From: Bolinopsis microptera
Taxonomy: Eukaryota; Ctenophora; Tentaculata; Lobata; Bolinopsidae
Length of the DNA stretch: 64,000 nt
Assembly: GCF_026151205.1 (NCBI RefSeq)
Contig: NC_087084.1
Location: 12,303,453 to 12,367,452, forward strand
Direction: 5' to 3'
Shown here: positions 7,862-48,548 of the stretch, in pieces
Position numbering within the stretch: position 1 is the stretch's first letter
Layout: each line of letters starts with the position of its first letter
Position numbers and translations under genes: made by a program
The notes under the pieces: model-generated
The model's input: only the letters and a program-made list of their open reading frames with translations
What the model was told of the DNA's origin: nothing
The model's database searches: none

Positions 7862-7995
7862 ACATGTCCTGGAGACATTGGAGACATTGGAGACACAGCT
7901 TTTGGAGACATTGGAGACATTGGAGACATTGGGGACATTAGAGACATTGGAGACAAAGCTTTTGGAGACATTGGAGACATTGGAGACACTGGAGA
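7862..7995. repeat. 9-bp GGAGACATT array, left arm
   Basis: About a dozen units of GGAGACATT with single-base variants and two interruptions by an AGCTTTTGGAGACA module. The same array appears inverted (AATGTCTCC) at 10521-10740, so the two arms could pair. Confidence 0.85.
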
Positions 7996-8004
7996 CGTAG
8001 ATGT

Positions 8005-10520
8005 ATGATTGGAGAAGGAGGAAGATCTAGGAGGAGGATGACCCAGGAGGAGGACTCAGGAGGAGAAGGAGGAGGATGAGGACTCAGGAGGAGGACTCAG
8101 GAAGAGGACTGAGGAGGACTGAGAAGGAGGAGGACTGAGGAGTACTGAGGAGGATGGCTGAGGAGGATGGCTGAGGAGGATGGCTGTGGAGGATGGCTGA
8201 GGAGGATGGCTGAGGAGGATGACTGAGGAGGAGGACCTAGGAGCAGGAGGACCCAGGAGGAGGAGGACCCAGGAGGAGGACTCAGGAGTAGGACTCAGGA
8301 GGAGGAGGACTCAGGAAGAGGACTGAGGAGGACAGAGAAGGAGGAGGGCTGAGGAGTACTGAGGAGGATGGCTGAATAGGATGACTGAGGAGGATGACTG
8401 ATAGGGAGGAGGAGGAGAAGGACTGAGGAGAAGGAGAAGGAGGAGGACCTAGGAGGATGAGGACCTAGGAGGAGGACTCAGGAGGAAGAGGAGGAGGAGG
8501 ACTCAGGAGGACTGAAAAGGAAGAGGACTGAGGAGGAGGAGGACTGAATAGGAGGAGGAGGACTGAATAGGAGGAGGAGGAGGGGGACTGGGGGAGGACT
8601 GAGGATGAAGAAGACTGACGAGAAGGATGAGAAGGAGGACTGAGGAGGAGGACTGAGGACTGAGGAGGATGAAGAGGAGGAAGACCTAGGAGGAGGACTC
8701 AGGAAGAGGACTGAGGAGGACAGAGAAGGAGGAGGACTGAGGAGTACTGAGGAGGATGGCTGAATAGGATGACTGAGGAGGATGACTGAGAGGGAGGAGG
8801 AGGAGAAGAAGGACTGAGGAGAAGGAGAAGGAGGAGGACCTAGGAGGATGAGGACCCAGGAGGAGGACTCAGGAGGAAGAGGAGGAGGAGGACTCAGGAG
8901 GACTGAAAAGGAAGAGGACTGAGGAGAACTGAGGAGGAGGAGGACTGAATAGTAGAAGGAGGAGGAGGGGGACTGGGGGAGGACTGAGGATGAAGAAGAC
9001 TGACGAGAAGGATGAGGAGGAGGACTGAGGACTGAGGAGGATGAAGAGGAGGAAGACCCAGGAGGAGGAGGACTGAGGAGGAGGATGAGGACTGAGGAGG
9101 ACTGAGGAGGATGGCTGAGGAGAATGGCTGAGGAGGATGACTGAGAGGGAGGAGGAGGAGGAGGAGGAGGAAGAGGACTGACGAGGAGGAGTAGGACTGA
9201 GGAGGAGAAGGAGGAGGACCTAGGAGGAGGAGGACCCAGAAGGAGGACTCAGGAGGAGGAGGAGAACTCAGGAAGAGGACTGAGAAGGAGGAGGACTGAG
9301 GAGTACTGAAGAGGATGACTGAGGAGGAGGAGCAGGAGGAGAAGGACTGAGGAGGAGAAGGAGAAGGTGGAGGAACTAGGAGGAGGATGAACCAGAAGGA
9401 GGACTCAGGAGGAAGAGGAGGGGGACTCAGGAGGAGGACTTAGAAGGAATGAGAAGGAGGAGGACTGAATAGGAGGAGGAGGAAGACTGAATAGGGGGAG
9501 AAGGAGGGGGACTGGGGAGGACTGAGGAGGAGGAGGACTGACGAGAAGGATGAGGAGGAGGACTGAGGACTGAGGAGCAAGAGGAGGAGGATGAAGAGGA
9601 CCCAGGAGGAGGAGGACTGAAGAGGAGGACTGAGGATGAGGACTGAGGAGGAGAAGGAGGACTGAGGAGGGCTGAGGAGGATGGCTGAGGAGGATGACTG
9701 ACAGGGATGAGGAGGAGGACTGAGGAGGAGGAGGAGAAGGACTGAGGAGGAGAAGGAGGAGGACCTAGGAGGATAACCCAGGAGGAGGACTCAGGAGGAG
9801 GAGGAGGACTCAGGAGGAGGACTCAGGAAAACTGAGGAGGAGGAGGGGGACTGGGGAGGACTGAGGAGGAGGAGGACTAAGGAGAAGGATGAGGAGGAGG
9901 ACTGAGGAGTACTGAGGAGGATGGCTGAGGAGGATGGCTGAGGAGGATGGCTGAGGAGGATGAGAGAGAGGGAGGAGGAGGAGGAGGAGAAGGACTGAGG
10001 AGGAGGAGGAGGAGAAGGAGGAGGACCTAGGAGGAGGAGGACTCAGGAAGAGGAGGAGGACTCAGGAGGAGGACTCAGGAAGAGGACTCAGGAGGAGGAC
10101 TGAGAAGGAGGAGGACTGAGGAGAACTGTCAACTTAGGAGGAGGAGGAAGACTGAATAGGAGGAGGAGGGGGACTGGGGGAGGACTGAGGAGGAGGGGGA
10201 CTTGGGGAGGACTGAGGAGGAGGAGGACTGACGAGAAGGATGAGGAGGAGGATTGAGGAGGAGGACTGATGATTGAGGAGGAAGAGGAGGAGGATGAAGA
10301 GGAGGAGGAGGACCCAGGAAGAGGAGGACCCAGGAGGTCCGGAGGAGGACCCAGGAGGTCCGGAGGAGGACCCAGGAGGTCCGGAGGAGGACCCAGGAGG
10401 AGGACCCAGGTCCCAGGAGGAGGACTCAGGAGGAGGAGGAGAACGACTGAGGAGGACTGAGGAGGAGGAGGACTGAGGAGGAGGAGGAGGAGGATGAGGA
10501 GGAGGAGGAGGAGGAGGAGT
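8005..10520. repeat. 2.5-kb purine-rich (GGA/GACTGAGGA) imperfect minisatellite
   Basis: The plus strand is almost entirely G and A with scattered CT, built from variants of GAGGAGGACTGAGGAG, GAGGATGGCTGAG and GACCCAGGAG. There is higher-order structure: about 300 bp from 8336 recur with few changes from 8723, a period near 390 bp. Three perfect GGTCCGGAGGAGGACCCAGG units sit at 10337-10400. Open frames here are composition artefacts. Confidence 0.9.
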
Positions 10521-10740
10521 CTCCAAAAGCTGTGTCTCCAATGTCTCCAATGCCCCTAATATCCATTTTATGTCCCTAATGTCCCCAATGTCTCCAATAT
10601 CCCCAATGTCCCCAATGTCTTTAATGTCTCCAAAAGCTGTGTCTCTAATGTCCCTAATGTCCCCAATGTCCCCAATGTCTCCAATGTCTCCAAAAGCTGT
10701 GTCTCCAATGTCTCCAATGTCTCCAATGTCTCCAATGTCT
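10521..10740. repeat. 9-bp AATGTCTCC array, right arm (inverted)
   Basis: Units AATGTCTCC and AATGTCCCC alternate with AAAAGCTGTGTCTCC modules. This is the inverted counterpart of the array at 7862-7995 and includes the same AAAAGCT module. Confidence 0.85.
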
Positions 10741-10801
10741 TTGTCTTTTTCGAAAAGATAAGGTGCGGGAGACATTGGAGACATGTCACCCCCCCTTTAG
10801 T

Positions 10802-22560: not shown

Positions 22561-22562
22561 CG

Positions 22563-23911
22563 CCCCAACCTTTACTTGAGCTTAATAGTAAGTAGCCCCA
22601 ACCTTTACTTGAGCTTAATAGTAAGTAGCCCCAACATTTACTTGAGCTTAATAGTAAGTAGCCCTAACCTTTACTTGAGCTTAATAGTAAGTAGCCCTAA
22701 CCTTTACTTGAGCTTAATAGTAAGTAGCCCCAACCTTTACTTGAGCTTAATAGTAAGTAGCCCCAACCTTTACTTGAGCTTAATAGTAAGTAGCCCCAAC
22801 CTTTACTTGAGCTTAATAGTAAGTAGCCCCAACCTTTACTTGAGCTTAATAGTAAGTAGCCCCAACCTTTACTTGAGCTTAATAGTAAGTAGCCCCAACC
22901 TTTACTTGAGCTTAATAGTAAGTAGCCCCAACCTTTACTTGAGCTTAATAGTAAGTAGCCCCAACCTTTACTTGAGCTTAATAGTAAGTAGCCCCAACCT
23001 TTACTTGAGCTTAATAGTAAGTAGCCCCAACCTTTACTTGAGCTTAATAGTAAGTAGCCCCAACCTTTACTTGAGCTTAATAGTAAGTAGCCCCAACCTT
23101 TACTTGAGCTTAATAGTAAGTAGCCCCAACCTTTACTTGAGCTTAATAGTAAGTAGCCCCAACCTTTACTTGAGCTTAATAGTAAGTAGCCCCAACCTTT
23201 ACTTGAGCTTAATAGTAAGTAGCCCCAACCTTTACTTGAGCTTAATAGTAAGTAGCCCCAACCTTTACTTGAGCTTAATAGTAAGTAGCCCCAACATTTA
23301 CTTGAGCTTAATAGTAAGTAGCCCCAACCTTTACTTGAGCTTAATAGTAAGTAGCCCCAACCTTTACTTGAGCTTAATAGTAAGTAGCCCCAACCTTTAC
23401 TTGAGCTTAATAGTAAGTAGCCCCAACCTTTACTTGAGCTTAATAGTAAGTAGCCCCAACCTTTACTTGAGCTTAATAGTAAGTAGCCCCAACCTTTACT
23501 TGAGCTTAATAGTAAGTAGCCCCAACCTTTACTTGAGCTTAATAGTAAGTAGCCCCAACCTTTACTTGAGCTTAATAGTAAGTAGCCCCAACCTTTACTT
23601 GAGCTTAATAGTAAGTAGCCCCAACCTTTACTTGAGCTTAATAGTAAGTAGCCCCAACCTTTACTTGAGCTTAATAGTAAGTAGCCCCAACCTTTACTTG
23701 AGCTTAATAGTAAGTAGCCCCAACCTTTACTTGAGCTTAATAGTAAGTAGCCCTAACCTTTACTTGAGCTTAATAGTAAGTAGCCCCAACCTTTACTTGA
23801 GCTTAATAGTAAGTAGCCCTAACCTTTACTTAAGCTTAATAGTAAGTAGCCCTAACCTTTACTTGAGCTTAATAGTAAGTAGCCCCAACCTTTACTTGAG
23901 CTTAATAGTAA
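22563..23911. repeat. 33-bp minisatellite, about 41 near-identical copies
   Basis: The unit is CCCCAACCTTTACTTG followed by AGCTTAATAGTAAGTAG. Copies differ only at few sites (CCCC/CCCT, CCTTT/CATTT, one TTGAGC/TTAAGC). Since 33 is a multiple of 3, a 447-codon frame runs through it (LSLIVSSPNLY repeats), which I treat as an artefact. Each unit contains GTAAGT, the core of a 5' splice site, on the plus strand. Confidence 0.97.
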
Positions 23912-26460
23912 GAAGATAATAAAGCACCTCTGGAATTAAAACTATTCGTACACACTCCACTATTTCCATAGTCCATACTGCATGCTAGGACATATCTTTA
24001 AACTGGTGTCTGAGATATTCTAGAATAGCATGTATGTGATGGAGTATTGATTGCTGGCTCTAGTCAGTTATTTCTATTAACTGTTGGTGAATGGAATTTA
24101 GTTCAAGGTTCAGGAATTTACGGTAACTCAGGTTCAGGAATTTACGATTTCAGTGAAACCTTATCAGCCCCTGTATACAGAGGGGCATAACTATACATAG
24201 TTGATGTAGGAATATTTACGTTTCTGCGTATATAATATAGAAGATAAATATTAAACTTTATTTGTACTTGAAACGTATTGAACTGGTAATGGTTATCGTG
24301 TTTTAGTCAATCAATTATAACATTTTATCCGAAATTATTGCATGCTGCTCGAAATTATTGCACTGGTACAACCAACAACGAAGCTTAAAGAATGTGTCCA
24401 AATATGTTAGGACGTCTGTTAAGATCGCTTTCTAGATATATGTAGAAAATGTTCTGTACAAAATCATTTAAAATTCTGCATTGAAATGATGTCAGTGTTC
24501 TAGAATAAGACGTATAATGATTAATGAATCGCAGCTTCTAGAAATTCACAATGTGACCTTCCAGATAATTTCGTGAAGGTTCTGGATATTTTAAACCATT
24601 CTGAATATTGTGTTAATTTCGGGCCACCCTGTAGAGTGTAGATGTCTTAAACACGTCTTGACTCTTGGTTCAATGATTTATTAGCTTTATTGTGTAGTCT
24701 GATAATGTTGTATCTAATATAGGCTCTAGTAGTTTCAATCATATTACAAACAGGGCAGTTTTCAAAAGTATTTATAAAAATGGATGATAAAAACAATAAT
24801 GTTTCAGACTGTTGATATTCACCATGACGTGAATTAGTTAGTTTCAAAGTAACATCTTAATAAACACTACAAACACTATATATACTATATACTATATATA
24901 CTATATACTACTACTATATACTACACCTCCTTCATTATAAACACTCCTTATAACAAACAAAAGGTGTAGCTGCCTCCCCACCCTAGTGTACACTGTTACC
25001 ATGGTGATGCAATAGTTTAGTGAGGGTAACGACTAGTACCACCCAGTAAGGGAGTGGTTATATACAAATAACACTGGTCCTATATCTTTACACATCGCGC
25101 CAGCACAGCAGAGATTTCGTATTTTGAGGAGTTTTATAACAACAATATTGGTCCAATATCCTAACTCTTTATATTATCAAGAGAGTTACAGTATGGTGTG
25201 AAAACCATTATTTCAACTTTTAATAGGGTAAAGTACTGAACTCAAGTAAAGTACTGAACTCACGATTACAGATAAAAACGATTGCAAAACTTTCAGTTAT
25301 TAAATAAATAAAAAACAATAATAATTTCATAATGTAACACATAAGGGCGTAAATGTCTGTATAAATTTTGAAACTCGGAAGGAACTTCGATTCCTTACGA
25401 CTTTAAGAGACCGTCACAAAATATTTGCAGACTTCTAACAATATTTGCTGATAATGAACCTATTTTGTGCATAACTTATATAACTTACATATCTTACGCC
25501 AGACTAATGTGTGACTAATGTGTGACTTATGTGTGACTAATGTGTGACTAATGTGTGACTAATGTTCATGTAGTCTCACTAAATATAACTGTACTAGTAC
25601 GCGATTTAGTCACTCAACTTCAAAGCTTCCTGTAAGATCTCAAAACTAAAATGGGCCTATAAATGAAATTGAGTCACTAATTGAGTCATTAATTGAGTCA
25701 CTAATACTGTAATACCTTGATAAAGGCCTGTGCTTCAGGGAAAATGTTTCTCACATTATGCAGACGATTGTGCATAATTGACTGTACTAGCAGTCTGAAC
25801 CTACAATTACTAATAACAACTGTTAGCTCATACACCCGTACTACACAGCTGTTATAGTACATGTGTATTGTGTAAGTAGTTACACTTACTTTGACTTTTA
25901 AGTACCAAGGAATTTTAACTGTTAGGAATTCTAACTATGTAATTGTAAACTATGTAATTGTACTGTACCGCATGACATTAACGGAAGTACTTTTCCATAA
26001 TTTGAGAAGTGTTGGAGTCACGTTATACACAGTACATATGGTGCATATTATTAAATTGCCATAACACATGGACTAGAGGGAATCGTGACTTCTCTCCAGA
26101 GGAGGCTGCCATATATTCACAATTGTATTTTACATTTGCTTGCACAAATTAGCTTTCAGACACCTCATTTAAAAAAAGCGTACATTGTGATGATAAACAT
26201 GTACAGACTGCACTCACACTTAAAGTTCAATTACCCTTCCCTTACAATCGAACAGCAGCTGTGACGTTACACATTTGTGACGTCATACTTGTGTATACCT
26301 TTACTTTATTACTTATGATCTGCTTTGTAAGAGCTTACATTGTGGCAGATCCTCCCCCTCCACCCCCAATATTAACCTATAATTTCTCTAGTAACTTAGT
26401 ATTATGAACTTCAGGTAAAGAGATATATGTAAACAGATTACTAGAATTGCACAGGTGTGG
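23912..26460. other. AT-rich spacer with small tandem repeats
   Basis: TATACTA-rich microsatellite at 24875-24925 and about six 11-bp ACTAATGTGTG units at 25502-25567; ATTGAGTCACTA units near 25670-25705. No supported gene. Confidence 0.6.
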
Positions 26461-32586: not shown

Positions 32587-35500
32587 TTGCCTTTTTTCAA
32601 AAGGGTGAAAAGGAAAAAATATATCGTTCATGTAGGTTTCCATAATTTAAGAAGAATGAACGGGTTTCAGTACACACCTCTTGAACTGCTGCTGATGAAA
32701 ATAACCCTGATAGTGTTCATTGTAGTGGGAGCAGTGGGTAATCTTGGTGTTATTCTTGCTGTTGTTGGTAAGTGATTTTTGTTGTGTTTATTTGTATTTC
32801 TTTTACTTTCCATGTTGTTTTGCATGGATCAAATCATCCAATTTTATCAAATAATATTCAAAAATATAAAAAGTTTGTTTAATCATATCAATAAAAAGTT
32901 TGTTTAATCATACTAATCTTATCCAGGAATAAAAAAGTGGCGAACTCCTTCAAACGTTCTCTTAGCTAACTTAGCAACAGCTGATCTCATTGTTAACCTC
33001 TGGACCTTCCCCATTACTTTAGCCTCCATCATAAAGGGTAGTCGGGCAGTCAGCGTCAACTTTTGTCGGGTATGAGCTGGGCTTATTTAGATCCGATGAA
33101 TTGAAACGGATTGAACACCATAATAATCGCATACAATTTTTCGTACTCTATTACATGTCATTGATGAATAACCATTTTTCATCATTATACTTATGGTATC
33201 ATTAAACTGTATTATACGTTGGCCTGAATGCTATTTTGGAATGAGAACACTGTTCTGTTACTCCAACCATTCCGGTATACTACACTCATTACTCAACTTT
33301 TTAAAATCTTTTAAAACTTTTAAATCGGTCCAAAAAGTAATACTCACCCCAACCCTTACTATAACTTACAATTTATTAATATTAACTTCTTCAAACGGAT
33401 ATCGTTATCAGTTTACGTCATCTGATTGATATAGCTACATTGTAGCTGCTTCATTAACTAAGATTCAAAGCGTTTTCAACTGATTGCGTTTCAGATAAGT
33501 GGATTTATTGACAATGTGGTAATATTGGTGTCAGTATGGACCCTAGCAGCCAGCAGTGTGGTCCGATTCGTCCACATTACCCGACCAAACCAGTCCAGAA
33601 CTTGCTCTTACAATACAGTTTGTAAGTAATTAAGACTTAAGTAATTAGGTAATTAGGTAATTAATAAAATGGTGAAATCCTCTGGATCAGGCAGAGGTCG
33701 AGTGTTACCGGGATTACTTCTGTAGTAGTTGTACAGCAATACTACGTTCCATTACCTTAGTTGAGTTAGTATTGCTGTACAACTACTACAGTAATAAGTA
33801 AAAACATATTTCCGTGTGCATGTTTCATATTTCAAACAGTATTAGTATTACAGAGATCACCTCTTCGATAAGCACTTCTTTGTTTCAAATTATTCCCAGC
33901 GTTTCACCACAGAACTTTCACAAAAGCCATAGATTTATTTGGATTATTTTAATAATTTACAACCCTCAGATATGAGGATAGCTAGAACTAACCGTAACAA
34001 ACCTGCTATTTGGCTATATAATAATAACTTGCACGATATTTCCTTGTGTTTCAGTAAGGATAACCCTAATGATATGGACGAGCAGCTTGCTTGTAGCTGG
34101 AATGCCCATGTTAGGGTGGGACGAATACGTTTACTCTCCTGTCACTTTCTCCTGCGGTATCCACGGTCTTCCAGGCTTCCACAAGTGAGTTGCAGGTTAA
34201 TTACCTACTAGGTTAATTACCTACTAGGTTAATTACCTACTAGGTTAATTACCTACTAGGTTAATTACCTACTAGGTTAATTACCTACTAGGTTAATTAC
34301 CTACTAGGTTAATTACCTACTAGGTTAATTACCTACTAGGTTAATTACCTACTAGGTTAATTACCTACTAGGTTAATTACCTACTAGGTTAATTACCTAC
34401 TAGGTTAATTACCTACTAGGTTAATTACCTACTAGGTTAATTACCTACTAGGTTAATTACCTACTAGGTTAATTACCTACTACCAAGACGCGGAATAAAT
34501 ATCTTACGAGTATCACCTGTTAACAAATGAATTACCTGGGGGACCCCGGGCTTAGTGTTCATTATAAACACTATTAGACTATTAATTATATTGGAGATAT
34601 GGCGGAATGACAGGCAGAGCTCGGTCCAGTGAGAGTGTTTGTAAAACTTGAATTGTATAACTTTAACCTTACATTAACCTTACTTTCTCAAAAGAGTTTT
34701 TATCGGCAATTAATAACTGCTCGCCTATTTGCTTGATCGTTATTGCAAACTACATACCTAGCAAGAGGATTATATCCTTTTATTAATTCATTACTAGGCT
34801 AGCGTTCAGAATTGATCGAGATTTTGCAGTCGAGATATTTTCAATCATCGTAAATTTTACCAGCCAATCAGACGAATAAGTAAAATAAATGAACGCACTC
34901 CGTGGGGCTGATTAATTGAAGTCACCTAGTTCTCTAGTTGAATGACTGCCAGAACTTTGTTTATTTGTGCCGAACCCAAATAAACTATCATTTATCGAGA
35001 AGAAATCTTAAAATTGAGTAAGATTAAGAAGGTCATAGATAGTGGGGATGAAACAAACCTGAACGATTGCCTGACAATATCAATATTAATATTGATGTTT
35101 CAGCTCCAAGATTCTAACAAAATTTTGATTTTCTCCAAGACTCTAACAAAATTGTTGATGTTTTCTCTAAGATTCTAACAAAAGAACACAATATTTCCTT
35201 GTGTTTCAATAAGGATAATTTATGAACATGTTCTCAGGTACTACTTCCTCTTCTTCTGCATCATCGCATTCCCCGGTCCGTTCGTGCTTATGTCCTTTAG
35301 TTACAGTATGATATTCCTGAGGATGTGTACTGTCCAAAACAACACTCGCAAACAGACGATGAGACAGGTATGTGTTGTTATTACATAATCAAATAATCAT
35401 GATTATATAATTACGTTATGTGATCAAGTTTGTTAAGACAAACAACTTAATTATATAAAGTAGAGCTAGGGTGTATATTTTCTTTATGTTTTGCCTAATT

Positions 35501-36502
35501 AGCCAATTATCATGGTAGCACTTCCTTTCATATCAAATTCATAAAGTACACATGCGGCTTAAAAACGCTTAAATTTGCCGCATTTCTTTATAATTATTGC
35601 GATTTTGTAGGTAATATTTAAATTCATTGAGAGTATACATAAATACATTAACAGCCGCAGTTTAATCGAAATCAGATACCTAGTAATTCTTTTCAGGTGC
35701 GGGCCTCAGTGATTCTGCTGATTATAATAATCATGTTTTCAATCTCCACATTGCCCACTTTTATTGTGGCCCTCATGTTCTGGTCTAAGATGACCCTAAG
35801 GATTCCTATCCAAGTCCCCATAGTTCTTCATTGGGTGCTCCAGAGTAATGCGAGTCTAAATCCAGTAATATATAGGTGAGATTAACGTCTCTTTATCAAT
35901 GTCATAATATCCGTAGAATGGGAATGATCAAATTAAATTATCGGTTAATTTTGTAATCCAGATCAACAAGAACATATCTTTTATTTGTGTGCTGTCTTAT
36001 TGCCGTTCGGTGAGAAACATCAATAAGATACTTTCTCTATAAGAAAACCCTTGTGCTTGAAATTCACCCACTCTATATCCCCAGTCTGCTGAATAGACAG
36101 TACCGTACCACGTGGGTTGAGTTCGTAGCACGGCACCAACACCTCGCTAAACAGAGACGTTCCCTGGCAACAAACCCTCTCAACATGGACCGGTCACGTG
36201 GTTATAGTCGGGGGAATCTAGCTCCTAAACCTCTACTCCGGAGACAAGCTGTACCCATACCTGCTTGTAATGAGGAGTACAGGAGACAAGCTGTACCCAT
36301 ACCTGCTTGTAATGAGGAGTACAGGAGACAAGCTGTACCCATACCTGCTTGTAATGAGGAGTACAGGAGACAAGCTGTACCCATACCTGCTTGTAATGAG
36401 GAGTACAGGAGACAAGCTGTACCTGCTTGTAATGAGGATAACAGGAGACAAGCTGTACCCATACCTGCTTGTAATGAGGATTACAGGAAGACGCAAGATT
36501 GA
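32587..36502 (+). CDS. Receptor B: class A (rhodopsin-like) GPCR with repeated cysteine tail
   Basis: Seven exons join in phase: 32587-32767, 32927-33069, 33495-33621, 34055-34184, 35238-35367, 35697-35875, 36085-36502 (435 residues; the ATG at 32656 would give 412). Class A landmarks: GNLGV in TM1, LANLATADL in TM2, conserved Cys before TM3 (FC, end of exon 2), VRF at 131-133 instead of DRY, Trp/Pro-rich TM4 with GWDEYVYSPVTFSCGI giving the loop-2 Cys, Pro plus SYS in TM5, TLP in TM6 and NPVIY (292-296) in TM7. TM7 has Gln, not Lys, at the retinal-lysine position, so it is not an opsin. The layout recalls the amine/melatonin/opsin branch, but the ligand is unknown. The C tail carries six copies of RRQAVPIPACNEEY. 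Intron 3 contains a perfect 25-bp hairpin, intron 4 a 16-bp minisatellite. Confidence 0.88.
33720..33791 (+). other. Perfect 25-bp stem hairpin in receptor B intron 3
   Basis: Arms 33720-33744 (CTGTAGTAGTTGTACAGCAA...) and 33767-33791 are exactly complementary, with a 22-base loop. Size and shape resemble a pre-miRNA, but perfect pairing also fits a young palindromic element. Confidence 0.85.
34193..34483. repeat. 16-bp minisatellite in receptor B intron 4
   Basis: About 18 near-perfect units of AGGTTAATTACCTACT begin nine bases after the exon 4 donor. The unit is itself a palindrome (GTAGGTTAATTACCTAC across units) and abuts CTACCAAGACGCGG, the end of the short hairpin element family. The terminal hairpin of that family (GTAGGTT...AACCTAC) looks like the seed of the array. 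Confidence 0.92.
34482..34524 (-). repeat. Short hairpin element, copy 3 (internally deleted)
   Basis: Read on the minus strand it begins AACAGGTGATACTCGTAAG and ends CGCGTCTTGGTAG like the copies at 12403 and 13469, but the central hairpin half is missing. Confidence 0.7.
34528..34625 (+). mobile_element. Half copy of the 14162 MITE family
   Basis: Matches the left arm of the 14162 element (TTACCT..GGACCCC.GGCT, TGTTCATTA, GGCGGAATGACAGGC, GAGC.CGG.CCAGT) with substitutions and an insertion. No matching right arm is seen nearby. Confidence 0.65.
36238..36490 (+). repeat. 42-bp coding repeat in the receptor B tail
   Basis: Six units encode RRQAVPIPACNEEY; the fifth lacks two codons (PI) and the last two read NED rather than NEE. 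Units are nearly identical in DNA, so the array is young. It lies wholly within exon 7, about residues 349-430, in the predicted cytoplasmic tail. Confidence 0.95.
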
Positions 36503-43032: not shown

Positions 43033-46000
43033 CTAGAAGGTTTGAATAGACATGACAGGCGCACTGATGGTGGACCTTAGCGAAGGTTTGGCCATGGACT
43101 CCTTGTACTTGATAATATCCTCCAACTTGTCCATCAGAATCCTGTTCCTCCCAAAGTAGATCAGAGGGTTCAGCGAGCTGAAACAGTGAAACATGGTTTT
43201 AAAATTCAGAATCTAAAAGTTATTCAGAAATGTATAATTTTTCTGTATGATGCTCCTGATTTTTCATGTAATCACCTTTTTTTATAAACATTTTTTAAAT
43301 TTTTTATAAGACTAGCATTGTACACAGGTTACAATTCACGGTTAATTTTAAGTAAAGTTTCAATCAACTGTAACTACAGTTACAGTTAAAGTAGATCCTT
43401 GCAAGACTTTTGAAATACCCAGTGATTATAGCAAACCTGCTGAGCAGTGTGGTAATGGTGAGGTAGAGGAAGAAGTAGTGAGCGAAGGAGGGAGACACGC
43501 CCCCCACCATAGACCTGTACCCCACAGAACCTGTGTACTCCATAAACGTCTCAAATGTCAGCACCCACCATGGTAAATAGCAAACAATGTACCTGAGTTG
43601 TGATGTGATGTTTCAGGTAGAATTAATTAATTAATTGATAAATTTCAGATGGAATTGATAAATATAATAAGATTCAAAGTTCAACGATTATCTAAAGTCT
43701 AACTTTTCTGAAATTTTGACTCTGAAAATTTAGTTTTCCCTCCTAGATTATTGTGAAACTGGAATGTTGGTAACTTACAAGAGAACGAGGTAGGAGATGG
43801 TAATAGCTGCTTGTTCCTGAGGGTCCACTTTCTGGACACGTTTGTTATCTGTATCTTTCTTCCTCAGCAGGTTCCCTTAGAACATTATAAGAGTATTATA
43901 TGATGTAGGGTTAACACTCATGGCACTATGATTAAAGTGAAGACAGGTTGATCTCCAAAATTTCGGCCTAAATTTACTTTCTAAATAATTCTTAAACGGT
44001 ACAAAATAATTCATTTTTGTTTTCATTGGAAACAGGAAAACGATGACCCCTTATTGGCAGCAAATCCCAGGTTTTATGCATCGGCCTCTCCCACATCCTA
44101 ATAAATACCAATATATTCCAATCTCTCCAACCTACCTCTCTCAGCACTCTTCTTCTCAGCCTCCTTTTCCCGTAGCCGAGAAGTCAGCCGATACACAACA
44201 GCCACAGAAGTGAGGACCATGAGGAGGCCGGGTACAATCACTACGAGGAAGACAAGGAAGAAGTACGCTGTTCCCACAGATTCGGGGTTGGAGACGTAAG
44301 GAGTCTGACGAGAGGGGTGTGAGGTTTTAACGGTATGTTGGGTGCAACGTTCGGTATCTCAATCTGTATTTAAATGAGTAGAAATAATTACAAATTATCT
44401 ACAAACACGTCATGATCGCCCTGATTAAACCCATCCTACCTCGTTTTGAGCGAGCATATCATTGCAGTCTCCCCCATTGCATTCCGGCTTCGTGATATCC
44501 TCGAAGTTGTAATGGCAGGCTGCGTAGTCCATATCCAGGGTGTACCGTGCATCTGTAGGGATGTTAATGTCAGTAGTTATATATAGCAGGGTTAAATCTA
44601 ATGTTAGATGAATATATTCTTTTAAATCATTTGATTATTGTGACATTAAGTGGGGTCCAGATCAAATGAGAAACTGCGTTCGTTAAAAAAATATAATACA
44701 TCGTATCCGTAGAATATGACGTATTCAAATGGCAAATGCAGTACGCTCAATCGTGAATCAGCATCAGCATCAACAAATATGTATCACTGACACTTACTTT
44801 TCATGAAAGGTACAACTGTAACGAGCAAGCTTATCACGTGGCACAGTGCCAGAGAAACCTTAACTCGTATTGGAGTCACCTGAAGTTGGGAGATACGTAT
44901 CAAGAACATGGATATCAGTCTGTTATCAGATTAGTCAGATATAATAACGATATTACTGGGTCTCGGAGGGTGGTAGAGAATAATAAGTATATTAGTTTTG
45001 CAAAGTTTTGTAAACATATTATAAGGGGAACAGGTCCAAAATGTAATTTGTTTTTGAGAGGTACGTGATGCGGCCAGCCAGCCATTATACTTACGATGGC
45101 CTTGTACTTGAAAGGTATGAAGATGGCAACGAATCTGTCCATAGCCCCAACAGCCAGAAAGAGCAGAATGGCCCTGGAACAGTAGTTGAAGAGGAAACCT
45201 ATAGTGTTACAAGCTATCACCGTCCCTGTGTCGTTATCTGGGAGATATAGGGAATATCAATCTCTGGCTTAAATGTCATATAAATTGGTTGATATAGGGA
45301 GTATAAAAAATGAAGTCAATCCCGCAACTTGAGCATTTAATTTCTTGTTTAAGATATTTACAGTAGGGTGATTAATAATAACCCTAATTATTACCCTAAT
45401 TACTAATTACCCTGCTGATAGAGAGTAGCGTGGAAGACTCTATCAGACATCAGGAGTATCAGAGTGAAGGGAGCCACGAAGAACACTATGATGTTATCAC
45501 AAACACACAGATTAAGAAGGATCAGAAGGTTGTTGTTGTTCCAGAGCAGCTTCGCTTTCAGCTGACAGAACACCGCTAGTGTCAGGCTGTTCGCTGTGGT
45601 AGTTAGTGTTACAGTTAGTGTTAGTGTTACAGCTAGTGTTACAGCTACTGTTAGTGTTACAGCTAGTGTTACAGCTAGTGTCAGACTGTTTGCTGTGATA
45701 GTTAGTGTTACAGCTACTGTTAGTGTTACAGCTAGTGTTAGTGTTACAGCTAGTGTTAGTGTTACAGCTAGTGTTACAGCTAGTGTCAGACTGTTTGCTG
45801 TGATAGTTAGTGTTACAGCTACTGTTAGTGTTACAGCTAGTGTTACAGCTAGTGTCAGACTGTTTGCTGTGATAGTTAGTGTTACAGCTACTGTTAGTGT
45901 TACAGCTAGTGTCAGGCTGTTCGCTGTGGTAGTTAGTGTTACAGCTAGTGTTAGTGTTACAGCTAGTGTTACAGCTACTGTTAGTGTTACAGCTAGTGTT

Positions 46001-48548
46001 ACAGCTAGTGTCAGGCTGTTCGCTGTGGTAGTTAGTGTTACAGCTACTGTTAGTGTTACAGCTAGTGTTACAGCTAGTGTCAGGCTGTTCGCTGTGGTAG
46101 TTAGTGTTACAGCTAGTGTTAGTGTTACAGCTAGTGTTAGTGTTACAGCTAGTGTTAGTGTTACAGCTAGTGTTACAGCTAGTGTCAGACTGTTTGCTGT
46201 GATAGTTAGTGTTACAGCTACTGTTAGTGTTACAGCTAGTGTTACAGCTAGTGTCAGACTGTTTGCTGTGATAGTTAGTGTTACAGCTACTGTTAGTGTT
46301 ACAGCTAGTGTCAGGCTGTTCGCTGTGGTAGTTAGTGTTACAGCTAGTGTTAGTGTTACAGCTAGTGTTACAGCTACTGTTAGTGTTACAGCTAGTGTTA
46401 CAGCTAGTGTCAGGCTGTTCGCTGTGGTAGTTAGTGTTACAGCTACTGTTAGTGTTACAGCTAGTGTCAGGCTGTTCGCTGTGGTAGTTAGTGTTACAGC
46501 TAGTGTTAGTGTTACAGCTAGTGTTACAGCTACTGTTAGTGTTACAGCTAGTGTTACAGCTAGTGTCAGGCTGTTCGCTGTGGTAGTTAGTGTTACAGTT
46601 AGTGTTAGTGTTAGTTAGTGTTACAGTTAGTGTTACAGTTAGTGTTAGTGTTAGTTAGTGTTACAGCTAGTGTTAGTGTTAGTTAGTGTTACAGCTAGTG
46701 TTAGTGTTACAGCTAGTGTTACAGTTAGTGTTACAGCTAGTGTTACAGTTAGTGTTAGTGTTAGTTAGTGTTACAGTTAGTGTTACAGCTAGTGTTAGTG
46801 TTAGTTAGTGTTACAGCTAGTGTTACAGCTACTGTTAGTGTTACAGCTAGTGTTACAGTTAGTGTTACAGTTAGTGTTACAGTTAGTGTTAATGTTAGTT
46901 AGTGTTACAGCTAGTGTTAGTGTTAGTTAGTGTTACAGCTAGTGTTAGTGTTAGTTAGTGTTACAGCTAGTGTTAGTGTTACAGTTAGTGTTACAGTTAG
47001 TGTTAGTGTTAGTTAGTGTTACAGCTAGTGTTAGTGTTAGTTAGTGTTACATGTACTTCAGACAGAACACCGCTAGTGTCAGACTGTTTGCTGTGATAGT
47101 TAGTGTTACAGCTACTGTTAGTGTTACAGCTAGTGTTACAGCTACTGTTAGTGGTACAGCTAGTGTTACAGCTAGTGTCAGACTGTTTGCTGTGATAGTT
47201 AGTGTTACAGCTACTGTTAGTGTTACAGCTAGTGTTACAGCTAGTGTCAGACTGTTTGCTGTGATAGTTAGTGTTACAGCTACTGTTAGTGTTACAGCTA
47301 GTGTCAGGCTGTTCGCTGTGGTAGTTAGTGTTACAGCTAGTGTTAGTGTTACAGCTAGTGTTACAGCTACTGTTAGTGTTACAGCTAGTGTTACAGCTAG
47401 TGTCAGGCTGTTCGCTGTGGTAGTTAGTGTTACAGCTACTGTTAGTGTTACAGCTAGTGTCAGGCTGTTCGCTGTGGTAGTTAGTGTTACAGCTAGTGTT
47501 AGTGTTACAGCTAGTGTTACAGCTACTGTTAGTGTTACAGCTAGTGTTACAGCTAGTGTCAGGCTGTTCGCTGTGGTAGTTAGTGTTACAGTTAGTGTTA
47601 GTGTTAGTTAGTGTTACAGTTAGTGTTACAGTTAGTGTTAGTGTTAGTTAGTGTTACAGCTAGTGTTAGTGTTAGTTAGTGTTACAGCTAGTGTTAGTGT
47701 TACAGCTAGTGTTACAGTTAGTGTTACAGCTAGTGTTACAGTTACTGTTAGTGTTAGTTAGTGTTACAGCTAGTGTTACAGCTAGTGTTAGTGTTAGTTA
47801 GTGTTACAGCTAGTGTTACAGCTACTGTTAGTGTTACAGCTAGTGTTACAGTTAGTGTTACAGTTAGTGTTACAGTTAGTGTTAATGTTAGTTAGTGTTA
47901 CAGCTAGTGTTAGTGTTAGTTAGTGTTACAGCTAGTGTTAGTGTTAGTTAGTGTTACAGCTAGTGTTAGTGTTACAGTTAGTGTTACAGTTAGTGTTAGT
48001 GTTAGTTAGTGTTACAGCTAGTGTTAGTGTTAGTTAGTGTTACATGTACTTCAGACAGAACACCGCTAGTGTCAGGCTGTTCGCTGTGGTAGTTAATGTT
48101 ACAGCTAAAGTCATCTTGAAAACAGTGTAGAAAATTTCGCTAAAAAACTTTGGAAACCAAATTGATTAGAAAGAGAATGTTACAAAGTTACCAATTAATC
48201 CAGTAGTAAGCACAATCGCGTAAAGGATGATGAAAAATATTTCCAGAGACTGGATAGAACGCTGAAACAATTATAATAGAAAGCTGTTCATTTTATGAAG
48301 GTATTATATATAGGGACCATTTGCTTTTTTAAGAACACTAATTTCTGTAATCGAGCATTTCCTGGTCTGAAATGTTACACAACCCATTAAATCACTCCTA
48401 AACTCATAAACAACTCACCTGCTATTTAATAGAATTAGAAACAACTAACCTTGTCCTTGATATCGGGCCAGTATCTAGAATCAGCAAGGTTCCAGCACCC
48501 TTCTCCTTCATTACTTGTTGAGTTACCGTACAGTACGCACTCCTCCAT
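43033..48548 (-). CDS. Receptor C: class A (rhodopsin-like) GPCR, ten exons
   Basis: Exons (5' to 3'): 48548-48450, 48261-48192, 45593-45411, 45237-45095, 44879-44798, 44552-44440, 44304-44136, 43875-43779, 43592-43437, 43177-43033. All join in phase at GT-AG sites into 418 residues. The N terminus has a glycosylation site (NST) and Cys residues. TM1 is split by intron 2 and reads IVLTTGLIANSLTLAVF; TM2 has LLNLCVCD; TM3 ends in AMDRFVAIFIPF (DRF in place of DRY, Arg152). The long second extracellular loop has several Cys (ACHYNFEDITKPECNGGDC). TM5 VVIVPGLLMVL is followed by a charged loop 3, TM6 has CYLPWW (CxxP) and TM7 ends SSLNPLIYF. It has peptide-receptor-like features, but the ligand is unknown. 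Intron 2 is a 2.5-kb minisatellite derived from exon 3 (see findings). Confidence 0.9.
43392..43421. mobile_element. Solo end of the mariner-like MITE in receptor C intron 9
   Basis: GATCCTTGCAAGACTTTTGA followed by AATACCCAG matches the right end of the element at 49578-49688 (TCCTTGCAAGACTTTAGAAA then CACCCTG). No left end nearby. Confidence 0.65.
45594..48110. repeat. Exon-derived 12-bp/composite minisatellite filling receptor C intron 2
   Basis: The basic unit is GTTACAGCTAGT (plus), i.e. ACACTAGCTGTA on the gene strand, a near copy of exon 3 codons ACACTAGCGGTG (Thr-Leu-Ala-Val). Interspersed are about twenty copies of the exon 3 start and acceptor (gene strand CTACCACAG|CGAACAGCC or CTATCACAG|CAAACAGTC). 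A larger unit of about 996 bp is duplicated: the landmark TGTACTTCAGACAGAACACC occurs at 47051 and 48047. Only the middle parts (46610-47050 and 47610-48045) contain GTTAGTTAG steps that break phase. Confidence 0.93.

Follow-up and report, generated by a model that had tools for sequence, protein, structure and literature searches.

An intron of a predicted receptor gene in the ctenophore Bolinopsis microptera is a splice-junction minisatellite, one of several in this genome

What has lengthened one intron of a predicted receptor gene of Bolinopsis microptera to well beyond the size of its neighbours, and are the copies of the splice acceptor that it contains of any use to the gene? An initial annotation had described intron 2 of this gene, hereafter receptor C, as an expansion of the start of the following exon, and had proposed that upstream acceptors could add hydrophobic residues to the first transmembrane segment (TM1). 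The window analyzed here is a stretch of 64,000 nucleotides, and coordinates refer to it unless a contig is named. On the minus strand, ten exons join into an uninterrupted product of 411 aa in a model that uses the exon-nearest acceptor of exon 3. The product contains the domain 7tm_1 (PF00001; E 2.1e-22, 80.3 bits against a cut-off of 30.5), by which receptor C is a predicted rhodopsin-type GPCR. Among the 60 of 140 matches listed, its relatives of solved structure are class A receptors or fusions thereof; their E-values are weak, and adenosine A2a scores best (3.5e-8). The gene is organized as follows.

48450..48548, minus strand: exon 1, beginning with ATG
48192..48261, minus strand: exon 2, first half of TM1, with last bases ATT G and donor GTAACTTT
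45411..45593, minus strand: exon 3, end of TM1, ICL1 and TM2, with the real acceptor at 45593
45237-45095, 44879-44798 and 44552-44440, minus strand: exons 4-6, within the block 43033..45237
44304-44136, 43854-43779, 43592-43437 and 43177-43033, minus strand: exons 7-10, with the ORF intact up to the stop

Intron 2 measures 2,598 bp and the other eight introns 135-281 bp; without its array, intron 2 would be 108 bp long. A search for close paralogues with the first 287 residues returned, outside the window and at E <= 0.001, only relatives on C3 (3.9e-9) and C11 (4.5e-6). The match of the C11 relative spans receptor C residues 45-198 and crosses the intron-2 position in a single stop-free open frame, so the intron is absent from that relative at this position.

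The real acceptor of exon 3, CTACCACAG/CGAACAGCCTGACACTAGCGG (a slash marks the splice junction), lies on the minus strand at 45593. Between 48088 and 45598 there are 21 instances of the motif CACAGC[GA]AACAG[CT]CTGACACTAGC, corresponding to the real site and 20 copies, 12 of them with G and eight with A, in agreement with the earlier estimate of about twenty repeats in two versions. All 20 copies retain CACAG/C, as the search pattern demanded, and they align to the real exon 3 over 22-35 nt with at most three mismatches. Each sits a multiple of three from the real acceptor, at distances of 99 to 2,490 bp. The copies at 99 and 330 bp had been taken for the first two decoys; both distances are indeed multiples of three, but copies at 204 and 273 bp intervene, and the one at 330 bp is the first of exact sequence. 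The exon frame is open upstream of 45594, as had been stated, up to 46614, a stretch that takes in only the 12 nearest copies.

45594..48083, minus strand: array of 2,490 bp, in which 12- and 18-bp filler surrounds 20 additional copies of acceptor plus exon-3 start
45594..46614, minus strand: stretch open in the exon-3 frame, holding 12 decoys

The internal structure of the array gives clues regarding its origin, and the parts that bear on this are listed below.

48084..48191, minus strand: unique part of intron 2, 108 bp, read as the pre-expansion intron; ends TTTAGCTGTAACATTAACTACCACAG
48065..48107, minus strand: putative founder duplication, a 39-bp step from TAGC at 48107-48104 (intron end) to TAGC at 48068-48065 (exon start)
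47091..48083, minus strand: first 993-bp higher-order unit, with 4 differences from 47090-46098 over the first ~928 bp, then 20 over the last ~65
46098..47090, minus strand: second 993-bp higher-order unit, partner of 48083-47091

In 18 of the 20 copies, the exon passes directly to the intron end at a common TAGC, giving the chimeric junction CTGACACTAGC/TGTAACAC. Arising at this passage, the repeated 12-mer ACACTAGCTGTA is half exon and half intron. There are two exceptions, 48083 and 47090, in which 35 and 32 nt of exon are matched, respectively. The latter is an internal copy at the start of the second 993-bp unit. In its 31 upstream bases, the former has six mismatches to the real site (0-3 in the other copies); it is likely the original acceptor, because the unique 108 bp ending TTTAGCTGTAACATTAACTACCACAG run straight into it. 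The filler matches the intron end at 16 of 17 positions, a value equalled by none of 2,000 shuffles. It had been thought that the 12-bp unit copies the exon codons for Thr-Leu-Ala-Val, and by eye 10 of its 12 bases do agree with exon codons; the local match to exon 3 gave p values of 0.09 and 0.11, which is within chance, and plain copying of exon codons was rejected in favor of an intron/exon chimera. The acceptor and exon start were thus amplified as first described, but by growth across the junction rather than by expansion of exon codons.

These features are consistent with the following history. An intron of 108 bp would have undergone a 39-bp tandem duplication over its 3' junction, with breakpoints at the TAGC of the intron end and the TAGC of the exon start, leaving the chimeric junctions that the copies display. 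The array would then have grown to the present 2.49 kb as the chimeric 12-bp unit slipped and segments of up to ~1 kb were duplicated, processes whose traces are visible inside it, presumably in this order. We also considered a gain of intron 2 by duplication of the TM1 coding segment, and rejected it: exon 2 and its upstream flank compared with the intron gave a DNA local score of 20 (p 0.44) and a protein p of 0.065. Alternatively, an ordinary genomic minisatellite of the CTAACACTAGCTGT type could have arrived at the junction by chance and picked up a piece of exon. Other chromosomes do carry 12- and 23-bp arrays akin to it (among them those at C12:86.7-87.5 kb, C5:8.997 Mb and C2:13.137 Mb), and the acceptor-exon motif is absent from all eight other related-array loci examined, as capture would have it. 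On the other hand, the 108-bp flank already holds TAGCTGTAACATTAACT, which agrees with the filler at 16 of 17 positions, and the chimeric junction accounts for the unit from local sequence, so that we regard capture as unlikely.

We then asked what distinguishes the real acceptor from its copies. Branch points follow the consensus yTnAy, and AG dinucleotides are generally excluded between branch point and acceptor; we therefore measured the AG-free stretch upstream of each acceptor and listed its yTnAy branch-like motifs. The real acceptor at 45593 has an AG-free stretch of 39 nt, with CTAAC at 9, 21 and 27 nt. In 18 of the 20 decoys, the stretch is 21 nt long and contains a single branch-like motif, CTAAC in 17 of them and TTAAC in 48083, at 9 nt from the site. 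These 18 decoys carry a G in place of the A found 22 nt upstream of the real site, which both creates an AG and destroys a CTAAC; in six of them this A/G change is the only difference from the real site in 31 nt. The remaining two decoys are of another kind.

46577, minus strand: decoy acceptor with 79 AG-free nt and six CTAAC; would insert 328 residues in frame, without a stop
47570, minus strand: decoy acceptor with 79 AG-free nt and six CTAAC; would end the protein after 230 codons

Neither departs from the real site in the final 31 bases of the intron, and both exceed it in AG-free interval and in number of CTAAC, so some splicing leakage is expected. Nor does a 21-nt interval alone disable a site, because two other real acceptors of receptor C have AG-free intervals of just 22 and 24 nt. 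A long interval occurs in three of the 21 sites, and the real site would be among those three by chance once in seven.

To assess whether receptor C is an isolated case, introns of other genes in the genome were sampled. Exon-by-exon matches gave 132 introns in four families, with a median of ~255 bp. The match rows were picked by hand (67 of 73 for myosin, 56 of 88 for SNF, 95 of 109 for kinesin and 22 of 35 for TCP1), the aim being to omit one-exon matches, overlapping duplicates and small contigs. The 34 stretches examined comprise 31 of the 32 introns longer than 700 bp (one of 19 kb was omitted) and three stretches from PF00122, two of which span an unmatched gap of ~38 residues; PF00501 contributed no long intron to the set. 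The junction was sought within ~60-145 bp of each end (other limits were set for two TCP1 introns), so that junctions lying farther away escape. In four of the 34 stretches, the intron contains three or more recurrences of an exon edge with its splice site, and each of the four is a long array; no repeated junction was found in the other 30. The rate of 4/34 (95% interval 3-27%) is rough because the four arrays are confined to three kinesin genes, one of which has two.

L044, kinesin gene: donor array, AINTSLSELG/GTAAGT, 52 copies
L049, kinesin gene: donor array, KPLVDWVFQG/GTAAGT, 25 copies, counted at the junction itself
L039, kinesin gene: acceptor array, TCCCCTTTTCTCAG/GTTTTCGTTTATAGACC, 26 copies
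L043, kinesin gene: acceptor array, GTTTTCAG/GAGGTAACAGTATG, 36 copies

Copy counts in the kinesin arrays include the real site and tolerate 4-5 mismatches. None of the 135 decoys in these four arrays keeps the frame, as each either shifts it or meets a stop; the exon-nearest site would therefore have to be used wherever the product is intact. The receptor C array is thus one of several in the genome of Bolinopsis microptera, at donors and acceptors alike, which is of more interest than any single array. A notion that founder duplications are always multiples of three was dropped: the step is 39 bp in receptor C, and other arrays have units or spacings of 33, 35, 49 and 21/23 bp, with no in-frame decoy there. 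The argument from AG and branch points also has bounds, as it cannot explain any silence of the decoys of L039 and L043, most of which reproduce the final 12-14 bases of the real intron end almost or entirely unchanged.

Repeats of splice-site words are abundant genome-wide: three GGTAAGT spaced 20-45 bases apart gave 5,305 matches against 36 for the reversed-pattern control, and three TTTTCAG spaced 12-42 bases apart gave 915 against 213, the counts being overlapping matches rather than arrays, including some dispersed copies, with one control word each. A 32-bp unit, GGTAAGTACCTGAGTAAAGAGCGCTATCATGA, forms arrays at C1:36576-37702 and C1:761375-762149; these two places are distant, so a donor-bearing array may be a dispersed copy with no exon beside it. 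Among nine stretches in which the fraction of recurring intron 20-mers exceeds 0.3, five (L032, L040, L041, L047 and L059) contain arrays without a junction. In one of these, from a chaperonin TCP1 gene (L032 749-2576, C13), an intron of ~2.4 kb consists mostly of a 30-bp array of 61 copies, the unit of which holds CTAAC and a pyrimidine tract, has a consensus devoid of AG, and stops recurring shortly before the acceptor. One intron of a kinesin gene (L041 770-2111, C2) holds two 35-bp arrays that meet there, each of ~19 copies and one nearly the reverse complement of the other. A 32-bp array at C12:86200 (L022 1-194), the reverse complement of which contains GTAAGTACTGA, is possibly another donor array.

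Other arrays lie within the window itself. A 33-bp array at 22562-23912 has 41 copies, a 99% match and GTAAGTA in its consensus, with no neighboring gene recognized. The region 7869-10742 contains a 2.5-kb AGG-rich array (8029-10519) with a TGGAGACAT-type minisatellite on both flanks, in inverted orientation. A second multi-exon receptor gene lies on the plus strand at ~32660-35880; in it, a 16-bp array of 18 identical copies (34194-34482) begins ~10 bp past a likely donor, and its unit is devoid of an exon edge. A receptor-like protein is encoded on the minus strand from 2479 to 1 and on to ~-428 (stretch L031) in a single uninterrupted frame of 969 codons. Between its apparent TM5 and TM6, the heptapeptide VCEPTIK and variants recur ~76 times, encoded by a 21-bp array (16-1623), each unit of which also comes near the donor-like AAG/GTATGT. 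This array was considered as a junction donor array and set aside, a coding repeat inside a continuous 969-codon frame being at least as likely.

Taken together, the receptor C array is most probably a neutral splice-junction minisatellite, a type of structure called “mirage”, with productive splicing only from the exon-nearest acceptor at 45593. Productive mRNA would arise only when the spliceosome picks this acceptor and the whole array is removed as intron. If exon 3 is recognized across the exon, the acceptor nearest the exon's own donor would be preferred, which favors 45593; in 18 of the 20 decoys, the upstream AG and the absence of a suitably positioned branch-like motif would act in the same direction. 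The same process has affected other genes of this genome, at donors as well as acceptors, and the receptor C array itself is most likely without function.

The reading frame offers the main case for another view, in which some splicing to the in-frame acceptors upstream would yield receptor isoforms whose TM1 carries hydrophobic insertions of TLAV type. Each decoy was spliced in silico to exon 2 and the frame followed through exon 7. Twelve of the 20 (45692-46577) give stop-free in-frame inserts of 33-328 residues, so the proposal of frame-preserving hydrophobic insertions into TM1 holds for these, and not for the other eight (47090-48083), which meet stops after 70-230 codons and would yield a truncated receptor; full retention of intron 2 leads to a stop soon after exon 2. 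The 33-residue insert has a GRAVY of 1.57, against 1.87 for the TM1 stretch beside which it would lie, and would greatly extend the hydrophobic run. The open frame in itself is uninformative as to decoy use, because any one frame stays open with probability 0.75 when a randomly shuffled 12-mer is repeated in tandem, and the near block is stop-free in three of six frames. The array does not behave as a protein-coding minisatellite either: beyond 46614 the exon-3 frame is shut, and the eight far decoys run into stops. Nor is frame compatibility a feature of such arrays, given that it occurs in 0 of 135 decoys in the four sister arrays.

Acceptor context is divided on the matter of isoforms. The in-frame decoy 46577 shares with 47570 the longest AG-free interval of the 21 sites, while the other 11 of the 12 in-frame decoys have only the 21-nt interval and one CTAAC 9 nt from the site. 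Both exonic differences between the decoy versions and the real exon fall at third codon positions, a point in favor of the isoforms. Over five arrays, 11 of 19 exonic differences between decoys and exon are at third positions (receptor C 2/2, L044 2/2, L049 5/6, L039 0/3 and L043 2/6), with a naive p of 0.024 that ignores shared history; some of these sites lie at copy edges, and receptor C sites beyond the chimeric junction were left out. This lean could hint at coding use, or at synonymous change of the exon itself. Overall, TLAV insertion is possible for 12 of the 20 copies, with no positive support beyond the frame, and we consider it improbable that such isoforms are made.

A regulatory role was weighed as well: as a splicing decoy or sponge, the array would hold splicing factors on its CTAAC/AG repeats and slow the removal of intron 2, so that array length would tune receptor output. 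Two decoys with six CTAAC in 79 AG-free nt would suit such a role, as would the TCP1-family intron with its 61-copy CTAAC and pyrimidine-tract array close to the acceptor and its consensus unit devoid of AG. The copies look recent and homogenized, however, as neutral minisatellite turnover predicts, and there is no sign of conservation, which makes this role quite improbable. Least probable of all is that the assembler inflated or scrambled the array length or the 993-bp duplication: the assembly report describes a wtdbg assembly polished by Illumina reads and pilon (PMC10232365), and 2.5 kb of near-identical units is judged hard to polish, but the first ~928 positions of the two 993-bp units show 4 differences, with more beyond, and the same anatomy is found at several unrelated loci.

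A broader proposal can be made, tentatively and at somewhat less than even confidence: ctenophore genomes may continually convert exon-intron junctions to minisatellites, at donors and acceptors, as a general route from short to long introns, in which dozens of near-identical sites compete and only the exon-nearest gives functional mRNA. As an array grew, intron recognition would give way to exon recognition, and the proximity rule would be put to a natural test in every such array. Duplicated splice sites in competition have usually been studied in constructs; here, 20 to 51 near-identical natural competitors per junction, donors and acceptors, are present in ordinary genes. Ordinary RNA reads could measure the choice, because only the exon-nearest kinesin copy keeps the frame. 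Recognition across the exon and intron-proximal choice are set out as two splice-site rules in one study (PMC9225289). By the terms given there, a kinesin array in which only the exon-nearest copy is in frame would match the across-exon prediction, the opposite of intron-proximal choice (PMC9225289).

Several known systems share features with receptor C. One is an intronic VNTR of ABCA7, with an effect on splicing according to the title of the report (PMC5954066); likened by title only, both are intronic tandem arrays in a gene. In the Rogers model and later work, as cited in PMC3087553, introns are gained by tandem duplication across AG/GT sites. Receptor C would likewise involve tandem duplication over a splice junction and the creation of competing sites, but here an existing intron is lengthened, and the comparisons did not support its being a copy of the adjoining exon. 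A further parallel is offered by NAGNAG-type tandem alternative acceptors, in which several in-frame acceptors precede one exon at a 3-nt step. Receptor C also has several in-frame acceptors ahead of one exon; unlike NAGNAG sites, they are 99-2,490 bp away and carry complete copies of the exon start.

Ctenophores branch near the base of animals. The closest counterparts of the receptor C array are the mirages of amphioxus, a cephalochordate, described in Adh3 and in the globin genes BflGb6 and BflGb9 (PMC3087553). In that report, edge copies escape homogenization, the BflGb6 mirage has 6 and 3 units in two haplotypes, length is unstable, and regular splicing is reported, from RT-PCR, to be undisturbed (PMC3087553). 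No report of mirages in ctenophores was found among the matches listed in the open-licence literature searched, and ctenophores are very probably a new phylum for them. In receptor C, tandem units span the exon-intron boundary, with 20 copies of the acceptor and exon start; many units keep their splice signals; and the interior is homogenized (18 of 20 copies share one junction), with a divergent edge copy at 48083. Compared with what is described of amphioxus, where BflGb6 has 6 and 3 units, the arrays of Bolinopsis microptera have 20-52 copies each, and that of receptor C adds a chimeric 12-bp filler and 993-bp higher-order units. The oddity of amphioxus would then not be confined to chordates, and it could be a general means of intron lengthening. 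The receptor C intron is a splice-junction minisatellite of the kind known from amphioxus.
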